From NCBI RefSeq assembly GCF_000702065.1, contig NZ_JNKN01000018.1, positions 1 to 42,090 of the forward strand: DNA of 42,090 nucleotides. The letters are read 5' to 3'. Under the pieces are notes generated by a model that did no database searches, was not told the DNA's origin, and saw nothing but the letters and a program-made list of their open reading frames with translations. Made by a program: the position numbers and the translations under genes. Below are positions 4,620-38,140 of this stretch, piece by piece (positions within the stretch are counted from its first letter, which is position 1; each line of letters starts with the position of its first letter). Source of the DNA: Kandleria vitulina DSM 20405. GTDB taxonomy: Bacteria; Bacillota_I; Bacilli_A; Erysipelotrichales; Coprobacillaceae.

Positions 4620-6212
4620 TCATTTTTTCTTTTCGTTTATCCATTCCCTGCTTGTCGGCTGGGGCTCCAGGAAGAACGTCGTCTCTGAATTGAGGCAGAG
4701 CAGTACCTTGTTTCTGAAGCGATGCCAGTTGGAGTAGCCGCTCTCGTGCTTGATGTCCTTTATGAGCTTGTTCCTGTTTTCGATGACGCTGGAATTTATT
4801 CGTCTTCTTTTCCTTGCCTTGTGGTCTTCAAGATATTCAGTGATTATTTCCTTTTTCGCATTTGGCAGACTGTCATCGATCACATAGCTTTCCTCATCAC
4901 CTTCAATCGGAGTGAATGAATTGATGATGCTTGTTCTCCATTGGCAGAGGGTGGCAGAGAAGCTGCACATTTCCTTTACTGCTGAAGTGCTGAAATTGTA
5001 TATAAGCTCCTTGAGAGCCGTTGGAGCAGTCTTTATCGTACTCTTCCGGAAAAAATGGTAAAGCTGTTCCTGGAGAGCGACTGCCTCTGAAAGTTCATTG
5101 TCAGTTTCGAGTATTTTGCAGTATATGTCATGATAGTTGAGATATTCCCTGAATACCCGATTGTATTTCTTTTTCCTGTTGGGATCGAAGAGGCCATCTG
5201 AAGGACGCTTGTAGAGCATCCATTGGGCAAACTTCTTGAGAAGGTAATAGCTTTTTACATGATGGTTGAATTCCATCAGTTCATCTGGCGTCATTTCGCG
5301 TACCGGTTTTGCCTCCTTCTTCAGGATCCTGTGGTGATTCATTATTCGTATTCTTACCTTCTGGACGCATCTAGACAGTTCCATCTTGAGATGGAACGAA
5401 TCGCATGAATGGACAGCCTTTGGAAACCATCTGTGGGTCATGTCGCGGTAGGTGTTCCACATGTCGCTGCTGACGATTTGCACTTCCTCACGTTCCTTCA
5501 GAGGAATCTTCTGGAAGTAGGCATCGAGATCCGCCTTCTTTCTTGAAGGCAGGACATCGATGATGTCCATGGTTTCATAGTCCATCATCACAAACACATA
5601 GTCGCTTACCGCGGTATGGAAGGCATAGGTCTCATCCACCACCAGGTAGCGTGGAAGTTTCCTTCTTGGGATGTTGACATGGCTGTCGAATATTCTCAGT
5701 ACCGTCGAGGGAGAGATGTGATATCTTTCGGCTATCGCCTTGAAGGTCTCATGTGGGCGGGAACAGTCCTGCAGCACATTATATACGGTCACTGCAGATA
5801 CTTTTTCACCCGGAAAAGCAAAAGGATTTGGCTCAACGAATGTCTTGCCGCACTCGGTGCAGCGCATTCGCCTCTGGTCATAGTCTATGAAACAGGGGGA
5901 GTTTGTGATAACGGAATGCGTTATTTTCCTTATTTTGTATCCCTTGACCTTGTCGGTCATGTTTCCGCACGCATTGCATCTGCATGGGACAGGCTTCAGC
6001 CTGATGTAGACGTGCAGTCCGTCCGGTTCATTGTGGACGTTGATTCTTTCCGCCTGGTCATCCTGCAAATTGAAGAGCTTCAGCACGAAGCTGTCCACCG
6101 AAAAGGGCGTAGTGGTGGTGTCAAAGGAGATGTTTTCTCCTGAAGGAGGCTGATTGCCGATCCTGCTTATCGATTCGACTGACTCGATTGGACTTGATTG
6201 ATTATTTTTCAT
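4620..6212 (-). CDS. ISL3 family transposase
   Basis: DDE-type transposase of 530 residues, apparently intact. The N-terminal zinc ribbon shows CRCNACG and, about 45 residues later, CTECGKTF (zf-ISL3). A helix-turn-helix region follows (AIAERYHISPSTVLRIF). The catalytic domain carries the three acidic residues in LVVDETYAF, SSDMWNTYRDM and SSVIENRNK, in the order expected for DDE_Tnp_ISL3. The ATG at 6212 is preceded by AAGAAGG at suitable distance; a GTG at 6224 is an alternative that falls within that ribosome binding site. A terminator hairpin lies just past the stop. Base and codon use differ from the neighbouring host genes. Confidence 0.95.
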   Translation of the reverse strand: MKNNQSSPIESVESISRIGNQPPSGENISFDTTTTPFSVDSFVLKLFNLQDDQAERINVHNEPDGLHVYIRLKPVPCRCNACGNMTDKVKGYKIRKITHSVITNSPCFIDYDQRRMRCTECGKTFVEPNPFAFPGEKVSAVTVYNVLQDCSRPHETFKAIAERYHISPSTVLRIFDSHVNIPRRKLPRYLVVDETYAFHTAVSDYVFVMMDYETMDIIDVLPSRKKADLDAYFQKIPLKEREEVQIVSSDMWNTYRDMTHRWFPKAVHSCDSFHLKMELSRCVQKVRIRIMNHHRILKKEAKPVREMTPDELMEFNHHVKSYYLLKKFAQWMLYKRPSDGLFDPNRKKKYNRVFREYLNYHDIYCKILETDNELSEAVALQEQLYHFFRKSTIKTAPTALKELIYNFSTSAVKEMCSFSATLCQWRTSIINSFTPIEGDEESYVIDDSLPNAKKEIITEYLEDHKARKRRRINSSVIENRNKLIKDIKHESGYSNWHRFRNKVLLCLNSETTFFLEPQPTSREWINEKKK

Positions 6213-6280
6213 GAAAAATTGCACCTTCTTTCTTAGTATGTCTATATGTTAGTCTACGAAAGAGGTCTGATGTTCAAGAG

Positions 6281-6778
6281 TCAGGTGGTCAGCGCAAAAA
6301 CTTTTCGGCCTCGGCTCAGGGCCCTGCATATGGCCAGGTACGCCTGGTTAGCCAGGGCGCCCATGGTTTTTCTGATGCGGTACGCCAAAGAGGATGAGAC
6401 AGCTGATAGTGCCTCATCGGTTTCTGGAACTGTTATTTTTTCATCATCACCTTCAGGTGATGCGTCATCATTGATGACTGCCATTATTTCATGAGCTCCG
6501 ATCACATGGTATGGAAGAAGGAATGACGGAAGGACCGTATGCGTTGTGAATGTTCCGTCGTGATTGATCTGCTTGACCCTGAACAGTGTCAGAGTGATTC
6601 GCTCTTCGCCATAGGAGTAGCTTCTTTCCACGTATGAATGGATATGCCATTTGAACTGGCTCATCTTCCTGCGGAGCTGTTCAATGATCTCTGCCGGTCT
6701 GTATTCCTTTCTGAATTCCTCAATAAATCTGAACTTGTCGGTTGTATTGATTTTTCTGTCGTACTGTTGTATTATCAT
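6281..6778 (-). CDS. Unknown protein carried by the ISL3 element
   Basis: About 165 residues, upstream of the transposase on the same strand and inside the terminal repeats, so it travels with the element. It is basic overall, with a predicted helical N-terminus (FIEEFRKEYRPAEIIEQLRRKM) and a segment reading THTVLPSFLLPYHVIGAHEI. From memory that segment resembles the C-terminal part of the DUF6431 proteins found with transposases, but the zinc-ribbon cysteines of that family are missing (a single Cys near the C-terminus). The start is uncertain: ATG at 6778 or TTG at 6805, neither with a clear ribosome binding site, and both next to a strong hairpin at 6794-6831. A role in transposition or its control is inference only. 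Confidence 0.65.
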   Translation of the reverse strand: MIIQQYDRKINTTDKFRFIEEFRKEYRPAEIIEQLRRKMSQFKWHIHSYVERSYSYGEERITLTLFRVKQINHDGTFTTHTVLPSFLLPYHVIGAHEIMAVINDDASPEGDDEKITVPETDEALSAVSSSLAYRIRKTMGALANQAYLAICRALSRGRKVFALTT

Positions 6779-6793
6779 ATTGTCGTAGGACGA

Positions 6794-6836
6794 GTGATGA
6801 ATCAAACTTTAGGCGGAGAGATTCATCACTTTTTTC
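6794..6836 (+). terminator. Perfect 11-bp hairpin at the start of the IS passenger gene
   Basis: AGTGATGAATC (6794-6804) pairs perfectly with 6821-6831 around a 16-base loop, followed by six T on the + strand, so it is a terminator for + strand transcripts. In the minus-strand mRNA the same stem covers the 5' end of the passenger gene and could hide its start. Confidence 0.6.
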
Positions 6837-16584: not shown

Positions 16585-16899
16585 ATGGACAAATTGATTC
16601 AAGATATTGTAAGTGTGGATCACAGCTGTGCTAAAGCAGTTGAAGAAGCGAAAAAGAAGAAGCAAGATGTCTCTCTTAACATGAACGATAAGAAGAAAGA
16701 AATCTATGACGACTTCGTCGCTCAATACCAAAAAACACTGGACGAAAAGAAATCTGAACTTAGTGCAAAAATTGCAGAAACTAAGAAAAAAGCAGATGAT
16801 GAATATGAAGTCTCTCTTAATAAACTCTCTGATCTCTATAAGTTGCATAAAGACGAATGGATTGATGCCATCGTAGAAAGATGCAAGGACTTATCGTAA
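16585..16899 (+). CDS. ntpF: V/A-type ATPase subunit G/H (peripheral stalk)
   Basis: A 104-residue, strongly charged coiled-coil protein: nearly every stretch from residue 15 to 85 is a Lys/Glu heptad-like helix (VEEAKKKKQDVSLNMNDKKK region). It should pair with subunit E to form the peripheral stalk that holds the catalytic head against the membrane stator. AAAAGGAGGTAGCTGTT precedes the ATG. It is the first gene of a ten-gene operon, the place NtpF holds in Enterococcus hirae. Its stop overlaps the next ATG as TAATG. The sequence is low in complexity, so the call rests on position plus coiled coil. Confidence 0.85.
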   Translation: MDKLIQDIVSVDHSCAKAVEEAKKKKQDVSLNMNDKKKEIYDDFVAQYQKTLDEKKSELSAKIAETKKKADDEYEVSLNKLSDLYKLHKDEWIDAIVERCKDLS

Positions 16900-17933
16900 T
16901 GGGATTTTCATCTAACGCAGTACTTGCAAAAGCAAGATCTATGTATTCTCATAGAATGACACCAGCCAAGTATGAAGAACTTATTCATAAAGGAAGCGTA
17001 GCAGAAATTGTTAGCTTCTTAAAAAATGAACCTTCTTACCAGGATGTCCTTGAAGAAATCAAGGAAACAAATGTACATCGTGGTCGCATTGAGTCATTGT
17101 TAAATGAACAGGCATTTATTGAAACAACAAAGATGCTTAGATATGTGCCTAAGAAGAAACAGGAATTCTATAAGCTTAGTGTCATCAAGGAAGAGATTCA
17201 TTTAATTATTGATAAAGTCAGATTAATTGATAGTGAAGTCAATGATTCCTATGATCTCAATATTCCATCTTACCTTGCACAATGTGCATCATTTGATCTT
17301 TATGGATTAATTGCGATCGATGATTATGCTACATTGTGTCAGTACATGAAAAGAACTCCATTCTATAAGGTATTAAAGAAGAATATCCCAGAAGATGGAG
17401 AAAAGGTAGATATCAACATCATGGAGTATGATTTTAAGAAAGCATACTATGATCATGTTGTTGGAGTGATAAAAAAAGAATTCAAAGGGAAAAAGCAAAA
17501 GGATCTTTTGACTATCGTCTATACAGAAATAGAACTTGAAAATATTTCTAAGATCTATCGATTAAAGAAATATTTCAATGTGACAGAAGAACAGATCAGA
17601 GGATGTCTGATCACTGATTACTGTCGTCTATCTGATAGCATGATGGATATGCTTATTAAAGCAAAAGATGCTGAAGATATGCTGAAGAAGCTTTCTTCAT
17701 CTTCATATAAATTCTATGTAGATGAAAAAGACTTTGTTTACATCGAGTACTATGCTGAAAAGATAAAATATCATTTAGCTAAGAGATATATGAGATTCTC
17801 AACAGATCCATCTCTTGTCTATATGACATATGCGATTGTGCATAGGATAGAGATAAATAATCTTATTCACATTATTGAAGGAATAAGATATGGAGAATCA
17901 GCAGAGCGTATCAAAGCTATGCTGATCTACTAA
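16899..17933 (+). CDS. ntpC: V/A-type ATPase subunit C
   Basis: A 344-residue helical subunit that links the central rotor axle (D/F) to the membrane ring, like subunit d of eukaryotic V-ATPase. The N-terminus NAVLAKARSMYSHRMTPAKYEELIHKGSVAEIVSFL is a typical family opening, and EIELENISKIYRLKKYF in the middle matches the repeated helical bundle. The ATG at 16899 shares bases with the preceding stop; AAGGAC lies eight bases upstream. A start at 16881 inside the previous gene was rejected. It sits second in the operon, earlier than in Enterococcus hirae. Confidence 0.92.
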   Translation: MGFSSNAVLAKARSMYSHRMTPAKYEELIHKGSVAEIVSFLKNEPSYQDVLEEIKETNVHRGRIESLLNEQAFIETTKMLRYVPKKKQEFYKLSVIKEEIHLIIDKVRLIDSEVNDSYDLNIPSYLAQCASFDLYGLIAIDDYATLCQYMKRTPFYKVLKKNIPEDGEKVDINIMEYDFKKAYYDHVVGVIKKEFKGKKQKDLLTIVYTEIELENISKIYRLKKYFNVTEEQIRGCLITDYCRLSDSMMDMLIKAKDAEDMLKKLSSSSYKFYVDEKDFVYIEYYAEKIKYHLAKRYMRFSTDPSLVYMTYAIVHRIEINNLIHIIEGIRYGESAERIKAMLIY

Positions 17934-17949
17934 GAGGGAGATTGAATTT

Positions 17950-19461
17950 ATGGCAATAGAACAAATGGAATTGTTGAATCTGACTTTTCCTAAGAAAGAA
18001 CTTAAGCCGATTCTTGCATTAATGCAGGACAATGAGCATTTTGCTCCAATTTTGGCTAATAAGGTCATGAACAATGTCAAAGGTGTTGCATCTCTTAAAA
18101 GAAATGAAGAGCTAGCTAAACAGCTAGAACGCTTAAGAGAAATTGCATCACATATCAATCTTGAGCTTAATGAAGCAAAAGGTGAAGACAAAGACCTTGC
18201 CGTTTCGGAAGAAATTCTTTCTTCAGTAGAAAAAGAAGTAAGCCAGATCATCAAGAATAAAGAGCAGCTCGCTGAAGAGCTTGAAGAAAATAAGGCAGCC
18301 TTAGGATTAATAGGAGCCTTACAGGCATCACATGTTAATATTGATGAATTAAAATCAACAAAGTATATCGTAACAAGAGTTGGACGTATTCGTCTAAAAG
18401 ATGAACACAAGCTCTCTTATTACCATTCTAAACAGGTGATGTATTACAAATTAGGACAGACAGCAAAGCATGTTTACTGTCTATACACAACAACAAAACA
18501 TGCAATTGTACAAATTGATAACATCTTCTCATCAATGGGATTCAAGGAAATTGAACTTCCAGACTTCATCCATGGGACAATTGATAGTGCCAAAGATGAA
18601 CTTCAGGAAGAAATCAAAGGAATGGAATCTTATATCAAGAGCGCTGATGAGAAACTAGAAGTTATTAAACTTCGTTATCAGGATACATTATCAGATCTTT
18701 ATGCAAGTCTATATACGATGAATGAAAGAGAAAAAGAAAAAGACTTCATCGTAGATTATTCCACAGTCTATGGTCTCGCAGGATTTATTCCTAAAAGAAA
18801 TGGGACTGACTTTAAGAATAAGCTTACTGCATTAAATGCAGATATCCGTGTTCTACCATGTGATATGTATGAAGATCAGGGTGTGATTGCACCAACAATT
18901 ACTTATAACTATTTCTTTGCAAAACCATTCGAAATGATTTCAAAGGTCAAAGAGAAAGAAAGAGTAGATACAACATTAGCTTATGCAATGATGTACATTC
19001 TTACTTTCATGTTGTTATTGGGAGATTTAGGTGTAGGAGCTGTACTTCTTGTATTAGGATTAATGATGCATAAGAAGAAAATTGGACAGCTATTAGAAGT
19101 GCTTGGTATTTCTACAGCAATCGGTGGATTGCTTTATGGAAATGTCTTCTATGCACATAATCTATATCCTTCACTCATTCCTCAAGGAGATGTTGTTTTA
19201 CGTTATATTAATGCAGTGATTCTTCTTTTTGTAGGATCATTTATCATTAACACAGCGAAAACAATCTACAATGAAAACAGAGTTGTAGATAAAGTCTTCT
19301 CATTCAATGGTTTTGTAGGTATCATGATTGTTCTTGCAATCATGTCCTATATCCTCATCAGCATCGATACACATATCGTGGTTTCTGTTATGCCCGTGAT
19401 TGTGATTGTTGCATTAGGTATCATTACCATTCTAATGAAAAAGATGATGCATAAGAAATAA
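17950..19461 (+). CDS. V/A-type ATPase subunit I paralogue, C-terminally short
   Basis: A 503-residue relative of the stator/ion-channel subunit. Residues 1-335 are the cytosolic arm with coiled coils (about 60-115 and 210-260). The membrane part begins near 340 (TTLAYAMMYILTFMLLLGDLGVG) and keeps the family GD motif, then has about four to five further helices before ending in MKKMMHKK. Compared with the full-length copy directly downstream it lacks roughly the last 130 residues, including the TM7 region with the essential arginine (SFLRVGG in the other copy). Both copies begin alike (MAIEQMELLNLTFPK here, MAIAKLKLVEIEFPK there), so they arose by duplication. It is in frame, with AGAGGGAG upstream, and is not obviously decayed. 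Confidence 0.85.
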   Translation: MAIEQMELLNLTFPKKELKPILALMQDNEHFAPILANKVMNNVKGVASLKRNEELAKQLERLREIASHINLELNEAKGEDKDLAVSEEILSSVEKEVSQIIKNKEQLAEELEENKAALGLIGALQASHVNIDELKSTKYIVTRVGRIRLKDEHKLSYYHSKQVMYYKLGQTAKHVYCLYTTTKHAIVQIDNIFSSMGFKEIELPDFIHGTIDSAKDELQEEIKGMESYIKSADEKLEVIKLRYQDTLSDLYASLYTMNEREKEKDFIVDYSTVYGLAGFIPKRNGTDFKNKLTALNADIRVLPCDMYEDQGVIAPTITYNYFFAKPFEMISKVKEKERVDTTLAYAMMYILTFMLLLGDLGVGAVLLVLGLMMHKKKIGQLLEVLGISTAIGGLLYGNVFYAHNLYPSLIPQGDVVLRYINAVILLFVGSFIINTAKTIYNENRVVDKVFSFNGFVGIMIVLAIMSYILISIDTHIVVSVMPVIVIVALGIITILMKKMMHKK

Positions 19462-19474
19462 GGAAGGAGATTAT

Positions 19475-21379
19475 ATGGCAATAGCAAAATTGAAGCTTGT
19501 GGAAATTGAGTTTCCAAAGAGTCAGAGTAGTGTCATTCTTTCCAAATTGATCAATAGAGATGATTTTCATCCTGAACCGGCATCAAAGTTTGCGGATCGT
19601 GTAAGAGGCTTAACAACATTAAAGAATGCTAGCCACTTCGCTGATCTTCTTTCAAGAATGGAAGAAGCAAAGCAGACTTGTGGATTCAAGTATGAAGAAG
19701 CAGCACCAGCTTTCATGAGTATTGCGGAAGCGGATCAGGCTTTCTTGGAAGTTGCTGATCAGGTAACAAAAATAAACATGCTCAAAAAAGATCTGGAAGA
19801 AATGATTGAAGAAAATGAGTTGACTATCAAGCAGCTCACACCAATGGCAAATGATGATGCTATGGATTTCGACAACATTTTTACAAGCAAATATCTAGAA
19901 GTAAGATATGGACAGATGCCAGTGCACAATGTCGATAAGCTTTCTTTCTATGATAATCAGATTTTCTTGTTTAAGTCATTCTACAAAGATGCACATACCT
20001 GCTACTGTTTCTATGTGACAACACATGAAAAAGCACCAGAAGTTGATAACATCTTCTCTTCATTGTTCTTTGAACGTATTCACATTCCTGATTATGTTCA
20101 TGGAACACCAAAGAAGGCAATTGAAAGTCTTCAGGAAGAAATTGATTTAGCAAGAAAGAATATTGATAAATATGAAAAGCATAAGCAGCAGCTGATTGAA
20201 TCACATCAGGAAGAACTTTCAGTGATCTATGCGACATGCAAGGATCGTGCTTCTACTTCAGAAGCAGAGAAGTTCGTAGTTGTATTTGGTAACATGGCTG
20301 CTATCTATGGATTCTGTGAAAAGAAAGTGGCTAAACTGCTTACTAATGAATTAGCTGGCTATGAGAAAGTCACTGTAAACATTAAGCCAGCGATGGGAGA
20401 TTCTCGTTTAACACCGCCAACATTGCTTAAGAACAATTGGTTCTCTAAGCCATTCAGATTGTTTGTGGAGATGTACGGGGTACCTTCCTATACTGACTTT
20501 GATCCAACAAACTTTGTCGCAATCACTTATACATTGCTATTTGGTATTATGTTTGGTGATGTCGGACAAGGTCTTGTACTTGCCATTGTCGGTTTCTTGT
20601 TTGCTAAGCTTAAAGGCATTAAGCTTGGTGAAGTCGGAATGCGCATTGGCTTATCTTCCATTATCTTCGGGTTCTTCTTTGGTTCAGTATTTGGTAATGA
20701 AGAAGTACTGACATTCATGCCACACTTTGTACCAATGGAATCAAAGAATACAATGCCGCTTCTTGAAGCTGCCATTGGTATCGGGGTTGTATTGATTATC
20801 ATTTCCATGATGTTCAACACATACTTGAACTTGAAGAAAAAACATTGGGGAGAATTCTTCTTCTCACAAAATGGTGTTAGTGGATTAAGTTTCTATATAT
20901 CCATTATCATCTTGGCATTAAATAGTCTTATGGGATTACAGCTTCCATTAGGTTTACCATTTATACTCATATTTACAATTCTTCCAATCTTGCTTATTTT
21001 CTTGAAAGAACCTCTTTCAAGAAAGATTGAAGGATTCAAGATGTTCCCAGAAGGATTTGGAAGCTTCTTTACGGAAGGCTTCTTCGAATTATTTGATATT
21101 GTATTAACATTCATTACGAATACAATGTCATTCTTGCGTGTAGGTGGATTCGTCTTATCACATGCAGGTATGATGCTTGTTGTCTATACATTAGCCAACA
21201 AGATGGGTGGACCTGGATATTGGATTACCTTAGTTATCGGAAATATCTTCGTTATGGTACTTGAAGGTATGATTGTAGGTATTCAGGTATTACGATTAGA
21301 ATTTTATGAAATGTTCTCTCGTTACTATGAAGGTAATGGGATTCCATTTACTAGCATAAAAGATATATTAAAGAAATAA
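19475..21379 (+). CDS. ntpI: V/A-type ATPase subunit I, full length
   Basis: A 634-residue stator subunit that forms the ion half-channels. Residues 1-350 are the cytosolic arm; about eight membrane helices follow. The first contains FGIMFGDVGQGL, the family signature. Near residue 540 the sequence EGFFELFDIVLTFITNT is followed by SFLRVGGFVLSHAGMM, where the arginine is the essential residue that discharges the rotor glutamates. The final helix IQVLRLEFYEMFSRYYEGNG and the tail GIPFTSI are also typical. AAGGAAGGAG precedes the ATG, 13 bases after the short paralogue. This copy alone has everything needed for ion transport. Confidence 0.95.
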   Translation: MAIAKLKLVEIEFPKSQSSVILSKLINRDDFHPEPASKFADRVRGLTTLKNASHFADLLSRMEEAKQTCGFKYEEAAPAFMSIAEADQAFLEVADQVTKINMLKKDLEEMIEENELTIKQLTPMANDDAMDFDNIFTSKYLEVRYGQMPVHNVDKLSFYDNQIFLFKSFYKDAHTCYCFYVTTHEKAPEVDNIFSSLFFERIHIPDYVHGTPKKAIESLQEEIDLARKNIDKYEKHKQQLIESHQEELSVIYATCKDRASTSEAEKFVVVFGNMAAIYGFCEKKVAKLLTNELAGYEKVTVNIKPAMGDSRLTPPTLLKNNWFSKPFRLFVEMYGVPSYTDFDPTNFVAITYTLLFGIMFGDVGQGLVLAIVGFLFAKLKGIKLGEVGMRIGLSSIIFGFFFGSVFGNEEVLTFMPHFVPMESKNTMPLLEAAIGIGVVLIIISMMFNTYLNLKKKHWGEFFFSQNGVSGLSFYISIIILALNSLMGLQLPLGLPFILIFTILPILLIFLKEPLSRKIEGFKMFPEGFGSFFTEGFFELFDIVLTFITNTMSFLRVGGFVLSHAGMMLVVYTLANKMGGPGYWITLVIGNIFVMVLEGMIVGIQVLRLEFYEMFSRYYEGNGIPFTSIKDILKK

Positions 21380-21393
21380 GGAGAAATTGAATT

Positions 21394-21819
21394 ATGTTAA
21401 CATTTATCTTACCAGTAATCGTCGTTATTGCACTTACTTTACCACTTATCGCAGTATTTAACGGAAAGGTGAACGCTGCTAGCGCTAAAAAACGTTTAGC
21501 CTTACATGTAGCCGGATTCTTTGGTGCATGTGCATTCGTATTATTAGCTTCTGCTGCTAACTCACCAATCTTCGCCGCTGGTGCTAACCAGATCACTGGT
21601 ACATTAGCTCAGGGTCTTGGATTTATCTCTGCTGCATTAGCAACTGGTATGTCAGCATTAGGTGCTGGTATTGCCGTAGCTGCTGCTGCACCTGCTGCTA
21701 TTGGTGCTTTCTCTGAAAACTCAGAAAACTTTGGTAGAGCATTGATCTTCGTTGCCTTAGGTGAAGGTGTTGCCATCTATGGTCTATTAATCTCTATCTT
21801 AATTATCAACGCATTATAG
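21394..21819 (+). CDS. ntpK: V/A-type ATPase subunit K (rotor proteolipid)
   Basis: A 141-residue membrane protein with four helices, near 3-22, 36-55, 72-105 and 115-138. The second hairpin contains the glycine/alanine-rich helix typical of c subunits (GMSALGAGIAVAAAAPAAIG) and the ion-binding Glu124 in ALGEGVAIYGL. The first hairpin has no membrane carboxylate, so there is one ion site per four helices, as in NtpK of Enterococcus hirae. The residues next to Glu124 do not include the Thr/Tyr pair of that sodium enzyme, so the coupling ion cannot be decided. AAGGAG lies nine bases upstream. Confidence 0.92.
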   Translation: MLTFILPVIVVIALTLPLIAVFNGKVNAASAKKRLALHVAGFFGACAFVLLASAANSPIFAAGANQITGTLAQGLGFISAALATGMSALGAGIAVAAAAPAAIGAFSENSENFGRALIFVALGEGVAIYGLLISILIINAL

Positions 21820-21829
21820 GAGTTCAGAG

Positions 21830-22138
21830 ATGAAGTTCTATTTGATCAGTGATAACATCGATACATTGACAGCTATGAGATTAGTGGGTATCGAAGGAGA
21901 AGTTGTACATGAACGTCATGAATTTCTTTCTCTTCTTGAAGAAAAGATGAAACAGAAAGATATTGCAGTTATCCTTGTGACAACCAAACTGATTGAATTA
22001 GCACCGGATGTTATTTCTGAAATTAAATTAAAACAGCCAGAACCTCTGATTACAGAAATTCCTGATAGACATGGTCACTCTAAGATTGGTGAAGCTATCG
22101 ATGGATATGTATCAGAAGCCATTGGCGTAAAATTATAG
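21830..22138 (+). CDS. ntpG: V/A-type ATPase subunit F
   Basis: A 102-residue soluble rotor subunit that binds subunit D in the central axle. The fold pattern is typical: MKFYLISDNIDTLTAMRLVGIEG at the start, a middle strand IAVILVTTKL, and ITEIPDRHGHSK near residue 75, close to the standard IPxxxG segment, ending in YVSEAIGVKL. GGAGTTCAGAG precedes the ATG, ten bases after subunit K. Confidence 0.92.
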   Translation: MKFYLISDNIDTLTAMRLVGIEGEVVHERHEFLSLLEEKMKQKDIAVILVTTKLIELAPDVISEIKLKQPEPLITEIPDRHGHSKIGEAIDGYVSEAIGVKL

Positions 22139-22148
22139 GAGAGAGATT

Positions 22149-22739
22149 ATGCAGGATACAGAGATTTTTCTTTCTATGAAGAAAGAAATTGAAGCAGAGT
22201 CTCAGAAAGAAATTGATGCGATCATGGCTGAAGTAAAAGCCATGGAAGATGAAGCTATGGTTTCTATGCAGAAAGAAGCAAAGAAAGATGCTGATCTACG
22301 CTTAAAACAGGAACTTGATGATATTCAGTCACAAGCTTCACAGGAAATTTCTGAAACTCATACACAAAGAACAAAGGCACTTATCGCTAAAAGAGATGAG
22401 TATGTAAAAACAATCTTCGATGCCGCAAGAGAAAAGCTTGTTGCTTTTACGACAACACCAGAATATGGTGAATATCTTTCTCGTAAAGCTAAGGCGGCTA
22501 GCGAAGAAGATATGTCTGAACCAGTTCTTATGATTAGAAGTGAAGATCTTCATTATGTAGATATGATCAAAGAGAACTATGGTAAAGATCTTCAAGTTGA
22601 AGAAACATCAGACATTACAATTGGTGGATTTATCCTAAAAGATCAGGTTACATCAGTTGTAGTAGATGAAACATTAGAATTTGCATTGGAAAATCAGAGA
22701 GGCTGGTTCGCAGCTCATTCTGGTTTAATGATTAAATAG
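22149..22739 (+). CDS. ntpE: V/A-type ATPase subunit E (peripheral stalk)
   Basis: A 196-residue protein with a long charged N-terminal helix (about residues 8-80, alternating Glu/Lys and Met) that pairs with the G/H subunit, and a globular C-terminal domain (TSDITIGGFILKDQ, family pattern) that attaches to subunit B. The C-terminus ENQRGWFAAHSGLMIK is shorter than usual. AGGAGAGAGATT precedes the ATG. The stop is followed closely by subunit A. Confidence 0.9.
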   Translation: MQDTEIFLSMKKEIEAESQKEIDAIMAEVKAMEDEAMVSMQKEAKKDADLRLKQELDDIQSQASQEISETHTQRTKALIAKRDEYVKTIFDAAREKLVAFTTTPEYGEYLSRKAKAASEEDMSEPVLMIRSEDLHYVDMIKENYGKDLQVEETSDITIGGFILKDQVTSVVVDETLEFALENQRGWFAAHSGLMIK

Positions 22740-22759
22740 TGTGGAAAGGGGAAAGAGAT

Positions 22760-24514
22760 ATGAATAATCAGGATGTTATTTATTCAATCAATGGACCCGT
22801 TGTAACAGTTAAGAACTCAGATACATTCTCTATGCAGGAAATGGTTTATGTCGGTCATGCAAGACTGATGTCTGAAGTTATCTCTATTTCAAAAGAAAAG
22901 ACTGTCATCCAGGTTTATGAGTCCACTACTGGACTTAGACCTGGTGAACCAGTATATCCTACTGGACAGCCTATCTCAGTTACACTTGGGCCTGGTATTT
23001 TAAGAAATATCTTCGATGGGGTAGAAAGACCTCTTGAAGAAATTGCGAAAGAAAGTGGCGCATTTATTCCTACAGGAAGCCACGTAGAACCTTTGGACAC
23101 ACAGAAATTATGGGATGTTACACTTTGTGTAAAAGAAGGAGATCAAGTAGAAGGTGGAGATGTCTATGCGACAGTTCCAGAAACTGATCTTATCACTCAT
23201 AAATGTATGGTACCTCCATATGTAAAGGGGACTATCAAGGAAGTAAAAGAAAACGGTCAGTATCGTATCAATGATACTGTTGTCGTTTTAACATTAGAAG
23301 ATGGTACTGATCTTAACTTGACATTATGCCAGAAATGGGCAATCAAGCAGCCAAGACCAGTAAAGAAGAGATTACCAATCTCTATGCCTTTAGTAACAGG
23401 ACAGCGTGTTATTGATACATTGTTCCCAATTGCTAAAGGGGGAACAGCAGCTATCCCAGGTGGATTTGGTACTGGTAAAACAATGACACAGCACCAGCTA
23501 GCTAAATGGTGTGATGCGGACATCATCGTCTATGTAGGATGTGGTGAACGTGGAAACGAAATGACTCAGGTTCTTGAAGAATTTAGAGAATTGATTGATC
23601 CTAAGTCAAATAAGCCATTAGTTGATCGTACTGTTCTTATTGCCAATACATCAAACATGCCAGTTGCCGCTCGTGAAGCATCCATCTATACAGGTGTAAC
23701 ACTTGCAGAATACTATCGTGATATGGGATACCATGTTGCGATCATGGCAGACTCTACTTCTCGTTGGGCAGAAGCATTACGAGAAATCTCAGGTCGTCTT
23801 GAAGAAATGCCAGCTGAAGAAGGATTCCCAGCTTATCTTCCTTCAAGATTATCACAGTTCTATGAAAGAGCTGGATACATGGAAAACCTTAATGATACAA
23901 AAGGTTCCGTATCAATCATCGGTGCCGTATCACCACAGGGTTCTGATTTCTCTGAACCAGTTACACAGAATACAAAACGTTTCGTACGTACATTCTGGGC
24001 ATTGGATAAAGCGTTAGCTTATGCTAGACATTACTTTGCGATCAATTGGAATCAGTCATACTCAGAATATATTCCTGATCTTGAAAGATGGTATAGCAAA
24101 AATGTTGGACCTAAGTTCATGCAGGACCGTCAGGCGCTTTCTTCAATCTTAGCGGAAGAAAACAAGCTTCAGGAAATCGTTCAGTTAATGGGTAGCGATG
24201 TCTTACCTGACGATCAGAAATTAACAATGGAAATTGCCCGAGTTGTCCGTGTAGGATACCTTCAGCAGAATGCTTTCCATAAAGATGATACTTATGTACC
24301 ACTTGAAAAACAGTTAAAGATGATGGAAGTCATCGTTTACTTATATAAAAAATGCCAGGAAGTTGTCATGGATGGTAAACCTATTCGTCAGCTTATTGAA
24401 ACAGGCATTTTCGATGATGTTGTTAAAATCAAATATGATGTTCCAAACGATCATCTAGAATTATTTGATGACTACTATAAAAAGATTGATGCAGTTTGTG
24501 CATCTATTGACTAG
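22760..24514 (+). CDS. ntpA: V/A-type ATPase catalytic subunit A
   Basis: The ATP-hydrolysing subunit, 584 residues, standard length. The P-loop is GGFGTGKT (234-241). The inserted non-homologous region between the N-terminal barrel and the nucleotide domain (about 110-190), a hallmark of A subunits, is present. The catalytic glutamate lies in [17 protein letters not shown] and the Walker B in [21 protein letters not shown]. The ATG at 22760 is preceded by AAAGGGGAAAGAGAT; an in-frame GTG at 22739 overlapping the previous stop was rejected because that ribosome binding site would fall inside the gene. Three copies alternate with three B subunits in the head. Confidence 0.96.
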
Positions 24515-24525
24515 GAGGAAGTTAT

Positions 24526-25965
24526 ATGGCACTACAGTATGTTGGATTAAGTGAAATTAACGGACCATTAGTCGTATTAGATCACGTAAAGAATGCATCA
24601 TACGATGAAATGGTAGAATTCGTTTTACAGAACGGATCAAAAAGACAGGGGCGTGTTGTTCAGATTGAAGGAGACAAGGCTGTCATCCAGATTTTTGAAG
24701 GAACAAACTCATTATCATTAAAGAATACAAAAACAAGATTGTTAGGTAAACCTATGGAATTATCTCTTTCAAAAGAAATGCTTGGAAGAGTATTCAATGG
24801 GGCAGGTAAGCCAATTGATGGTCTTGGAGATATTTATGCAGAAAAGAGTGCAGATATCAATGGTCAGCCATTGAATCCAGTTTCTCGTACATATCCTCAG
24901 AACTATATCAACACTGGTATTTCATCTATTGACTGCTTAACAACACTTATCAGAGGACAGAAACTGCCAATCTTCTCAGGTTCAGGTCTTCCTCATAACC
25001 AGTTAGCTGTACAGATTGTTAAGAATGCTCAGGTCGCTGAAGAAGGACAAGAATTTGCGGTTGTCTTTGCGGCAATGGGTGTTACAAACGATGTCGCTAA
25101 CTACTTCAGAAGATCATTTGAAGAAGCTGGTGTTATGGACCATGTTGTTATGTTCTTAAACTTATCAAATGATCCAATCATTGAAAGAACATTAGCACCA
25201 CGTTGTGCATTAACAGCAGCTGAATACTTAGCATTTGAACATGATATGCATGTTCTTGTTATCTATACAGATATCACTTCATATTGTGAAGCATTACGTG
25301 AATATTCTTCAAGTAAAGGTGAAATCCCAGGACGTAAAGGTTATCCAGGATACCTTTACTCAGATCTTGCTTCATTATATGAAAGAGCTGGTATTGCTAA
25401 AGGAGCAAAAGGATCTGTTACACAGATTCCAATCTTAACAATGCCTAACAATGATATTACTCATCCAGTACCAGATTTAACTGGATATATCACTGAAGGG
25501 CAGATTACTCTTGATCCAGAATTATCTTCAATGGGAATCTTCCCACCAGTTAATGTATTACCATCATTATCACGATTAATGAAAGATGGTATCGGTGAAG
25601 GATTTACAAGAGCGGATCATCAGGATGTCGCTAACCAGCTATTTGCGGCTTATGCCCATGTACAGGATGTTAAAGCCTTAACATCAGTTATCGGTGAAGA
25701 TGAATTATCTGCAGCCGATAAAAAGTTCATGACATTTGGTCGTCTTTTTGAACAGCATTTCCTTAACCAAGGGGACGAAAACAGATCAATTGAAGAGACA
25801 CTTAACTTAGGATGGATGCTCTTGTCCGTATTGCCAAGAACTTCATTGGATCGTCTCGATAACAAGCTTCTTGATCAGTTCTATGATCACGAAAAAGCTG
25901 TTGAATACTTCGGCTTACAAGAAAGCAATGTCATCAAGGAATTAAAGGACGCTGTCAATGGCTAA
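24526..25965 (+). CDS. ntpB: V/A-type ATPase subunit B
   Basis: The non-catalytic head subunit, 479 residues. It lacks a P-loop, having [15 protein letters not shown] instead, which is typical of B subunits. [41 protein letters not shown] is the conserved core, given here by its ends at about 290-330. LEGTNSL-like beta-barrel segments form the N-terminus. CTAGGAGGAAGTTAT precedes the ATG. Its last eight bases overlap the start of subunit D. Confidence 0.96.
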
Positions 25966-26581
25966 GCAAGTATTCCCTACTAAGGCAAACCTTATTGCGA
26001 CAAAGAGTTCGCTTGCCTTAGCGAAACTTGGTTATGATCTGCTTGATAAAAAAAGAAACGTACTCATCAAGGAGATGATGACTCTCCTTGATGATGTAAA
26101 AGAAATCCGTGATAAAATCACAGATTCCTATGCGAAAGCATATGAAGCATTAAAAGATGCCAACGTTTCTGTAGGGATTATCAGTGACTTAACTGAAAAT
26201 ATTCCTGTAGACGATGGCCTTCATGTAAAATATCGTTCTGTCATGGGAGTAGAACTTCCTCGTATCGAATACGAAGAAACACCATTGCGTGTCGGATACG
26301 GTTTCGAAACCGCCAACTCCCGTGTTGACTACGCTTATCTCTGCTTCTCAGAAGTCAAGAAATTGACTGTCAAGCTTGCTGAAATAGAGAACTCTGTCTA
26401 TCGATTAGCGAATGCAATCAGACAGACACAAAAGCGTGCTAACGCCTTAAAGAATATCTCAATTCCTCAGTTTGAAAAGACTGTCAAGTTCATCTCCGAT
26501 GCGCTTGAAGAAAAGGAAAGAGAAGAATTTACAAGACAGAAAGTTATTAAAAGTCAAAAAGAAAAGAAAGAAGCTCATTAA
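25958..26581 (+). CDS. ntpD: V/A-type ATPase subunit D (central axle)
   Basis: The 207-residue rotor axle. The N-terminus ([20 protein letters not shown], then [17 protein letters not shown]) matches the family, as does the C-terminal helix with [18 protein letters not shown], which pairs with the first as a long coiled coil. The ATG lies inside the end of subunit B with AAGGAC seven bases upstream. The stop overlaps the stop of lon on the other strand within a terminator loop. It is the last gene of the operon. Confidence 0.95.
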
Positions 26582-35323: not shown

Positions 35324-35728
35324 ATGTATAGAGTATCAACACAGGCATCATTTGATGCAGCACATTTTTTAAAGGATTATCCAGGTAAATGTCATAATCT
35401 TCATGGACATCGCTGGAAAGTTGTGATCGAAGTCTCTTCGCCTGAATTAGATGAAGGGTCAATGGTTATTGATTTTACTGATATCAAAAAAGAACTAAAG
35501 AAGATGGCTGATCATTTTGATCACTGTCTTATTATTGAAGAAGGATCACTAAAAAAAGAAACATACGAAGCGCTTGTATCAGAAGATTTTCGCATTGTCA
35601 CAGTTAACTTTAGACCTACGGCAGAATGTTTTGCTAAATATTTCTTTGATCAGCTTTCTTCATCTTTTCCAGTTAATAAAGTACAAGTCTACGAAACACC
35701 TAATAATGTAGCAACTTACGAGGTGTAG
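35324..35728 (+). CDS. queD: 6-carboxytetrahydropterin synthase
   Basis: Converts dihydroneopterin triphosphate to 6-carboxy-tetrahydropterin, second step of preQ1 synthesis. At 134 residues it has normal length. Zinc ligands are His14 (DAAHFL) and His27/His29 in CHNLHGH, where Cys23 is the catalytic cysteine. FDHCLIIEE and the late RPTAECFAKY plus VYETPNN are family features. CAAGGAGGCAAT precedes the ATG. It is the first gene behind the riboswitch. Confidence 0.95.
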   Translation: MYRVSTQASFDAAHFLKDYPGKCHNLHGHRWKVVIEVSSPELDEGSMVIDFTDIKKELKKMADHFDHCLIIEEGSLKKETYEALVSEDFRIVTVNFRPTAECFAKYFFDQLSSSFPVNKVQVYETPNNVATYEV

Positions 35729-35730
35729 TT

Positions 35731-36390
35731 ATGTTTAAAGTTGTAGAAATGTTTGAAAGCATCAATGGTGAAGGCTATAAAGCAGGACAGCTGGCTTATT
35801 TTGTAAGATTTCAGGGATGCAATATGAACTGTGTCTACTGTGATACTAAGTGGGCCAACAAGAAAGATGCTCCGTATCAGCTGATGTCAGCACAAGATAT
35901 TGTTTCAAAAGTCAATGAAGCACATATCAAGAATGTGACTTTGACAGGCGGTGAACCTATGCTTCAAGAAGAGATTGAAGAACTGATCAGGCTGTTATAT
36001 GAGAATGGTCATGAAGTAGAAATAGAGACCAATGGGTCAATTGATATTTCTTCTTATGATCATTGTGATTATCGTCCAAGTTTTACTTTAGATTATAAAT
36101 GTCCAGATAGTGGGATGGAGAAGTTTGTGGATGTGATGAACTATGATCATATTCAAGAAAAAGATACCATTAAGTTTGTCTGCTCATCACGTATTGATTT
36201 AAAGAAAGCTTATGAGATTATTGAGAAGTATGCATTAAATAAAAAAGCACATGTCTACTTATCTCCGGTCTTTGGAAAAATTGATCCACAGGAGATGGTG
36301 GCATTTATGCTTGAAAAGAATATGAATGATGTCAACTTGCAGCTGCAGATGCACAAGTTTATCTGGGATCCAGAAGAAAGGGGTGTTTAG
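35731..36390 (+). CDS. queE: 7-carboxy-7-deazaguanine synthase (radical SAM)
   Basis: Rearranges 6-carboxy-tetrahydropterin to 7-carboxy-7-deazaguanine. A 219-residue radical SAM enzyme with the cluster cysteines C30, C34 and C37 in CNMNCVYC, and ESINGEGYKAG at the N-terminus, the usual QueE opening. TLTGGEPMLQ is the SAM-binding GGEP motif. GAGGTGTAGTT precedes the ATG, two bases after the queD stop. Needs a [4Fe-4S] cluster and magnesium by family knowledge. Confidence 0.95.
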   Translation: MFKVVEMFESINGEGYKAGQLAYFVRFQGCNMNCVYCDTKWANKKDAPYQLMSAQDIVSKVNEAHIKNVTLTGGEPMLQEEIEELIRLLYENGHEVEIETNGSIDISSYDHCDYRPSFTLDYKCPDSGMEKFVDVMNYDHIQEKDTIKFVCSSRIDLKKAYEIIEKYALNKKAHVYLSPVFGKIDPQEMVAFMLEKNMNDVNLQLQMHKFIWDPEERGV

Positions 36391-36957
36391 ATGATTGATA
36401 CAAAAGCGATAGAAGAACATATTCGTGGTATTCTTATTGCCTTAGGTGATGATCCTGATCGAGAAGGATTAAAGGAAACACCACAAAGAGTAGCACGCAT
36501 GTATGAAGAAGTCTTTGAAGGCATGAATTATACTAATCATGAGATTGCAGAAATGTTTAATAAGACTTTTGAAGAAGATTTAAATGAACATAATCAAGAT
36601 ATTGTCTTTGTCAAAGATATAGATGCCTTTTCTTACTGTGAACATCATATGGCACTCATGTATGATATGAAAATATCAGTTGCCTATATTCCCAATGGAA
36701 AAGTCATCGGCTTAAGCAAGATTGCTCGTATTTGTGATATGGTCACAAAAAGACTGCAGCTTCAAGAACGTATTGGCAGTGATATTGCGGATATTATTTC
36801 GGAAGTAACTGGCAGTGAAGATGTCGCTGTCTTTATTGAAGCGAAGCATAGCTGCATGAGCGCAAGAGGGATTAGAAATACTGGCGCAAAGACTTATTCA
36901 AGAACATTAAGGGGAAGATTTGAAAAAGAACCTTATCTATTAGGAGGAATGATGTAA
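36391..36957 (+). CDS. folE: GTP cyclohydrolase I
   Basis: Opens GTP to dihydroneopterin triphosphate, the first step toward both folate and queuosine. It has 188 residues. Zinc-binding CEHH appears in [10 protein letters not shown] and the second Cys in [32 protein letters not shown] and [14 protein letters not shown] are standard. Its position between queE and queC, under the preQ1 riboswitch, means GTP supply is controlled with the pathway. The stop overlaps the queC start (TAATG). Confidence 0.96.
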
Positions 36958-37646
36958 TGAAAGCTTTAGTTTTATCTAGTGGTGGTATTGACAGTACGAC
37001 ATGTTTAGCAATGGCTGTAGAAAAATATGGCGCTGATAATGTCATTGGATTATGCATGTACTATGGACAAAAGCATCAAAAAGAAATAGAGAGTGCCAAG
37101 AAAGTAGCGAACTACTATGGGACTGAGCTTTATGAATTGAATCTTTCTAAGATCTTTGCTTATTCAAAGTGTACGTTATTAAATCAAAGTGAAGACGAGA
37201 TTCCTCATGAATCCTATGATGAACAATTAAAACATACTGATGGTGCTCCTGTTTCTACTTATGTACCATTTAGAAATGGGTTATTCTTATCAGCTGCTGC
37301 TTCTTTTGCTTTATCAAAAGAATGTTCAGTCATCTATTATGGAGCCCACGCTGACGATGCAGCAGGAAGTGCTTATCCTGATTGTTCACCAGCATTTAAT
37401 AATGCGATTAATGAAGCTATCTATTTAGGAAGCGGTCAACAATTAAAGGTTGAAGCACCATTTATCAATAAGACCAAAGCAGATGTTGTGAAGATTGGTC
37501 TTGATCTTCATGTTCCTTATGAATTGACATGGAGCTGCTATGAAGGTGGCGATGAGCCATGTCATACATGTGGAACATGTGTAGATAGAGAAAAAGCATT
37601 TGAGCTTAATGGAACAATTGATCCATTATTAAAAGGAGATAAATAA
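36957..37646 (+). CDS. queC: 7-cyano-7-deazaguanine synthase
   Basis: Makes preQ0 from 7-carboxy-7-deazaguanine, ammonia and ATP. A 229-residue PP-loop ATPase with SSGGIDSTT at residues 7-15 and a C-terminal zinc site of four cysteines in [28 protein letters not shown] and [17 protein letters not shown] are family hallmarks. It overlaps folE by one base, and its stop overlaps the queF start in the same way. AGGAGGAATG lies just upstream. Confidence 0.96.
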
Positions 37647-38140
37647 TGAGCAGAACAAAAGAAGAAATGAAGGATGTTACATTCTTAGGAAACCAGAATA
37701 CAAAATATCCTACTGATTATGATCCAAGTGTCCTCCAGTCATTTGATAATAAACATCCTGGAAGAGAATATTTTGTAAAATTCAACTGTCCAGAATTTAC
37801 TAGCTTATGTCCCATTACTGGACAGCCAGATTTTGCGACTGTTTATATTTCATATGTTCCTAATATCAAGATGGTTGAAAGCAAATCCTTGAAGCTATAT
37901 TTATTTAGTTTTAGAAATCATGGTGATTTCCATGAAGACTGCATGAATATTATCATGAATGATCTGATCAAATTGATGGATCCATTATATATTGAAGTAT
38001 GGGGTAAATTTACACCAAGAGGTGGGATTTCAATTGATCCATACTGCAACTATGGAAAGAAAGGTACAAGATGGGAAGAGGTTGCTTGGCAGCGTTTGAC
38101 TCATCATGATCTTTATCCAGAAAAAGTCGATAATCGTTAA
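37646..38140 (+). CDS. queF: preQ0 reductase (NADPH-dependent)
   Basis: Reduces the nitrile of preQ0 to preQ1, the base that TGT inserts into tRNA and the ligand of the upstream riboswitch. It is the short unimodular (YkvM-type) form, 164 residues. The catalytic Cys55 is in [12 protein letters not shown], with Asp62 next to it, and the NADPH motif ESKSLKLY is near residue 78. Its TAA lies inside the terminator stem that ends the operon. Confidence 0.96.

Follow-up and report, generated by a model that had tools for sequence, protein, structure and literature searches.

The stretch of DNA analysed here, hereafter the window, comprises 42,090 nucleotides from Kandleria vitulina DSM 20405. It contains a complete V/A-ATPase operon, with the gene order G-C-Is-Il-K-F-E-A-B-D, where Is and Il denote short and full-length versions of subunit I (Table 1). 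Note that the match for G is weak (Pfam V-ATPase_G, E value of 0.0014, under the cut-off). Is and Il are intact open reading frames that begin with ATG and are 13 nucleotides apart. A purine-rich stretch, which can serve as a ribosome-binding site, precedes each. The Is protein has a cytosolic arm, spanning approximately residues 1-320, followed by about six membrane helices. In the genome of the window, there is one V-ATPase operon and one gene for subunit E. Two further open reading frames in this genome (G000:C26:14676-18160), encoding 472 and 510 aa, have the sizes of F-type beta and alpha, with a weak match to subunit B. Since the pair looks like F-type ATP synthase beta/alpha, the V/A-ATPase is apparently not the sole rotary ATPase there. 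Other genes in the window were read by eye. A 534-aa open reading frame (4620-6224, - strand) is ISL3-type transposase-like and adjoins a shorter one on the same strand (6281-6805). Five compact open reading frames (35324-38140, + strand) resemble the queuosine precursor genes QueD, QueE, FolE, QueC, and QueF.

Table 1. The V/A-ATPase operon and features of its two subunit I genes (window coordinates)
Feature	Position	Strand	Details
G/H-like coiled-coil peripheral-stalk gene	16585..16899	+	104 aa; named from weak Pfam match and operon position
Subunit C (AC39 / d type)	16881..17933	+	PF01992, E 6.6e-55
Is, short subunit I paralogue	17950..19461	+	503 aa; without SFLRVGG arginine
Is, best-kept motif of distal lobe	18517..18579	+	Residues 190-210, DNIFSSMGFKEIELPDFIHGT
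Is, leftover membrane domain	18973..19458	+	Residues 342-503
Is, helices in structure model			342-355, 360-372, 377-396, 415-443, 452-474, 481-502; low confidence past residue 440
Il, full-length subunit I	19475..21379	+	634 aa; R555 and R607
Il, segment round essential arginine R555	21119..21172	+	SFLRVGGFVLSHAGMMLV; no counterpart in Is
Subunit K (c-ring proteolipid)	21394..21819	+	PF00137
Subunit F	21830..22138	+	PF01990
Subunit E (peripheral stalk)	22149..22739	+	Sole E gene found in genome
Subunit A (catalytic)	22739..24514	+	
Subunit B	24526..25965	+	
Subunit D (central stalk)	25958..26581	+	

Is and Il share 27% identity over 500 residues (E 3e-52). With both reading frames open, this bears out the original prediction that the operon carries two adjacent, in-frame paralogues of subunit I. 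Judged by sequence, Is is by descent a subunit I paralogue and the product of a subunit I duplication. Il aligns end to end with NtpI of Enterococcus hirae (8wci; E 2.6e-38) and passes the curated cut-off for PF01496 (92.6 bits against 30.7). Two arginines of Il, R555 (SFLRVGG) and R607 (VLRLEFYEMF), are invariant among 19 aligned full-length copies. They correspond to the pair of arginines that subunit a has in its final two helices. With its complete match, both arginines, and a Pfam score above the cut-off, Il is a full-length subunit I. Both arginines are absent from Is, which stops after roughly six predicted helices of the membrane domain. Hence, the first copy does lack the essential-arginine segment, as had been predicted. 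No match to PF01496 was obtained for Is, or for six further short copies tested. The structure model of Is (pLDDT 82, pTM 0.58) aligns, over residues 3-470, with subunit I of Thermus (6r0z_N; Z 18.0, rmsd 6.5, 436 aligned). Thus, of the features that mark subunit I, Is has the cytosolic dumb-bell arm fold, according to the model, and a place in the V/A-ATPase operon. The eight-helix membrane domain, the essential arginines, and the Pfam match are missing. Because of these three failures, we do not file Is as a functional subunit I.

Our family sample comprised 43 genomes from 20 genera. The family (f1) is Coprobacillaceae according to its named members, as far as NCBI lists them: Massilimicrobiota, Stoquefichus, Longibaculum, and Thomasclavelia. 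A short copy is present in 38 of the 43 genomes, mostly in the same slot. Hence, the gene is not missing from close relatives; its absence from all of them would have spoken against the original prediction. Is lies directly upstream of Il in 34 genomes. In three others, from two genera, it is elsewhere in the genome, still intact, and the operon has closed up (G011, G030, and G031). One genome (G018) has a soluble short copy of 315 aa. Four lack Is (G007, G009, G028, and G029) and, for the remaining genome (G008), the contig ends too early to judge. The Il proteins of the four genomes without Is fall in two parts of the tree, so Is has been lost more than once. Three length classes are apparent: 495-518 aa, with about six membrane helices; 435-459 aa, with about four; and 315 aa, with none. 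The tree needs three changes of length class within the family. Hence, in sequence-based prediction, the membrane part of Is shrinks across the family from six helices to four and, in one genome, to none. We conclude that the membrane helices of short copies are dispensable. The relocated copies are 435-436 aa long (L036:6029-7339, L038:7004-8311, and L040:6239-7549) and, in both genera, have the same two neighbours. By eye, these are an rRNA methyltransferase-like gene and an NlpC/P60-like gene; they gave no V-ATPase link or functional hint. A single ancestral move out of the V-ATPase operon likely explains all three.

Similar proteins occur in the wider class, to which all matches listed in a search of the phylum belong. 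Soluble-only copies, of 320-341 aa, were found in families f22 (nine genomes) and f11 (four genomes). C and Il flank the copy in f22 and in the f11 genome G452; G667, G671, and G672 have it between G and C. We built a maximum-likelihood tree of the arm from 86 rows and 323 columns. The window's Is forms one clade with 16 further family copies (support 99/95), accounting for 17 of the 18 copies sampled. The f11 trio groups with the full-length proteins of the genus it comes from (100/97), and the short copies of f22 lie among the full-length ones of that family. Note that the short copies of L050 and L089 are long-branch rows, placed without confidence. A single origin for all short copies was rejected, with a log-likelihood 242 lower (AU test, p-AU 2.2e-63). 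Hence, barring gene conversion, there were at least three duplications. Conversion between neighbouring genes might give the appearance of separate origins. However, the G-C slot in three f11 genomes makes this unlikely as the whole answer. If pore-less arms have arisen at least three times, an arm without a pore is useful by itself.

The predicted structure of one soluble form, from locus L084, has a pLDDT of 87 and resembles subunit I (Z 18.3) and subunit a (Z about 16). This copy (L084:10306-11331, - strand) ends with a basic, helix-forming tail, IFKKIKNAFKKSE, modelled with low confidence. The tail may contact the membrane, standing in for the helices that are gone; it is missing from most of the other soluble copies. 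In f2, the other family of the order, there was no short copy among the matches listed. Third matches considered as short copies in f2 were rejected; G052 and G082 have one subunit I, and G175 has a frameshifted single subunit I. The apparent short copy of G668 is likewise a frameshifted single gene. Some f2 loci, including L131 and L132, have a V/A-ATPase with a clearly different and shorter subunit I, of about 592-630 aa. The short-copy profile matches this protein in two pieces only, and some genomes have two such operons. Six distant loci have one full subunit I apiece.

Short copies are under purifying selection. Pairwise dN/dS is 0.08-0.23 for those of the family, compared with 0.05-0.15 for Il, and the selection persists after relocation. 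For the soluble f11 copies, dN/dS is 0.10, with dS near saturation. Mean column identity is 45% among Is copies and 65% among Il copies; hence, Is evolves faster than Il. We also compared regional identity between each short copy and the full-length copy of the same genome, in three groups. The distal lobe is the best kept in all three (0.40 in f1, 0.71 in f22, and 0.62 in f11) and, for its DNIFSS...HG motif, the values are 0.56, 0.87, and 0.82, respectively. Equivalent values for the proximal lobe are 0.23-0.27, 0.45-0.51, and 0.51. Note that, within the arm of Il too, conservation is highest in the distal lobe. Hence, conservation of this lobe is not specific to Is, and provides support rather than proof for its use.

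Among known proteins, Is is closest to subunit I, or NtpI (E. hirae 8wci; Thermus thermophilus 6r0z and 3rrk), and to eukaryotic subunit a. It shares with them the fold of the arm, with proximal and distal lobes, and the first membrane helices with a GD-G motif, and is encoded by the same operon as subunit I. Unlike these proteins, Is has neither the last membrane helices nor the two arginines, scores below the Pfam cut-off, and sits beside a complete subunit I. In related families, the short copies are the arm alone. Eukaryotic V1 subunit C (Vma5; ATP6V1C) offers a second comparison, being separate from subunit a, with two globular ends and a coiled coil, and holding a peripheral stalk (PMC6131620). 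It has no homologue in A- and F-type enzymes (PMC6131620). Fold comparison with subunit C (7u4t_O), using Foldseek and VIA, gave Z 8.3 for Is and 9.1 for the soluble form, far below the Z of 18 for subunit I/a, and coiled coils give such values by chance. There was no C chain among the profile matches, and no Pfam C match, although this does not prove unrelatedness. Unlike subunit C, Is in the family of the window has membrane helices. By analogy, Is may work like eukaryotic subunit C; we do not regard it as a homologue by descent and claim no membership. The subunit a isoforms (Vph1/Stv1 and a1-a4) are, like Is and Il, paralogues of one subunit in one organism. However, these are full-length, conducting alternatives for different membranes, whereas Is is non-conducting and shares an operon with the conducting copy.

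What might a subunit I without a pore do? In Thermus, the subunit I arm has separate binding sites for two EG stalks (PMC5758568), and the eukaryotic arm binds one stalk at each of its ends (PMC10313074). The A-type collar is subunit I alone; yeast adds C and H, with C holding a third stalk (PMC6131620). The same review agrees with the earlier premise that V/A-ATPases, for the enzymes studied, use one subunit I (PMC6131620). A pore-less arm made repeatedly beside a full subunit I is best explained as a collar arm that binds EG. Our proposal, to which we give an even chance, is that Is acts as an extra, non-conducting collar or stator arm, which binds an EG stalk and is like eukaryotic subunit C in function. 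Is, made by the same operon, would join the V/A-ATPase as an additional collar subunit. Its dumb-bell arm, mainly through the distal lobe, would bind a peripheral EG stalk at the foot; this would most likely be a stalk left unheld in the usual two-stalk bacterial enzyme. Is would then brace that stalk against Il. In the family of the window, the leftover membrane helices would anchor Is, and Il alone would provide the ion path. In favour of this, Is occupies the same operon slot, next to every likely partner, in 34 of the 43 family genomes. Furthermore, the conducting helices are lost, the arm is kept, and the predicted folds match the arm of subunit I/a (Z 18.0 and 18.3). Note that Is is not needed for the basic enzyme, since four family genomes lack it and three have it outside the operon. 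A second E or G gene, marking an extra stalk, was not found, though one gene can supply three copies. We are more doubtful of a broader possibility: that certain bacterial V/A-ATPases possess a third peripheral stalk and a collar of two arms, derived by recurrent duplication of the subunit I arm. This would be a convergent bacterial counterpart of eukaryotic subunit C, with intermediates (six helices, four, and none) still found in living species.

The original prediction allowed for a second stator arm, an assembly factor, or a regulatory isoform. The stator arm fits best, given the repeated origins of soluble, arm-only copies and the well-kept distal lobe, and the other two options remain as rivals. 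As a regulator, Is could act as a decoy, its arm competing with Il for V1's EG stalks, or could park V1 off Vo. Either way, activity or assembly could be turned down; complexes holding Is would have no ion path. We consider this rather unlikely. Is keeps the putative stalk-binding lobe yet cannot conduct, some genera do without it while others encode it outside the operon, and it evolves faster than Il, all of which favour regulation. However, predicted co-transcription and the fixed slot by Il in most genomes suggest a constant dosage, close to that of Il, and not conditional expression. Less probable still is an assembly factor or placeholder, which would hold EG stalks or the proteolipid ring during assembly and come off before the enzyme is complete. 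The position of the gene, between those for the rotor-attachment subunit C and Il, would suit such a role, as would its dispensability and optional membrane anchor. Conversely, repeated origin from a stator arm points to structural use of the arm. We know of no assembly factor with such an origin.

It is very unlikely that Is has left the V-ATPase to work for a different protein or membrane process. While relocated copies are under strong selection outside the operon (dN/dS 0.08), most copies remain in it, and such copies lie within this operon in three separate families. We can practically discount a decaying pseudogene, or an assembly or sequencing artefact. Compared with Il, Is is truncated and faster-evolving, four genomes have lost it, and I-gene frameshifts do exist in some assemblies (G001, G175, and G668). 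However, a frameshift near position 19461, which might have restored the missing helices, was sought and there is none. Similar ends, at 495-518 aa, occur in many independent genomes, including the single-contig G019 and G010, and this rules out a frameshift or assembly error. Similarly, family-wide conservation (38 of 43 genomes), the single clade that unites 17 of the 18 copies sampled (99/95), and dN/dS of 0.08-0.23 rule out a pseudogene. The frameshifts themselves, which may be real or sequencing errors, affect the single full-length gene in L107 (G668) and L130 (G175), and the short copy in L029 (G001).

In the literature searched, which took in few subscription journals, we found no account of a bacterial subunit I that is truncated or present as a second copy. 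The shrinking membrane part, the soluble-only copies in two other families, the minimum of three duplications, and the best-kept distal lobe are new. Recurrent arm-only copies, kept by selection, suggest an extra stator arm in some bacterial V-ATPases, somewhat like subunit C of human cells. In the A-type and bacterial enzymes studied, one subunit I is the collar that holds two stalks, and a pore-less second copy would alter that picture. Recurrence would also show which part of subunit I is useful alone, and offer a living model for the rise of a separate collar subunit, such as eukaryotic C. For annotation, note that the short copies tested miss the Pfam subunit I family; hence, they would be called hypothetical or, wrongly, a second subunit I.
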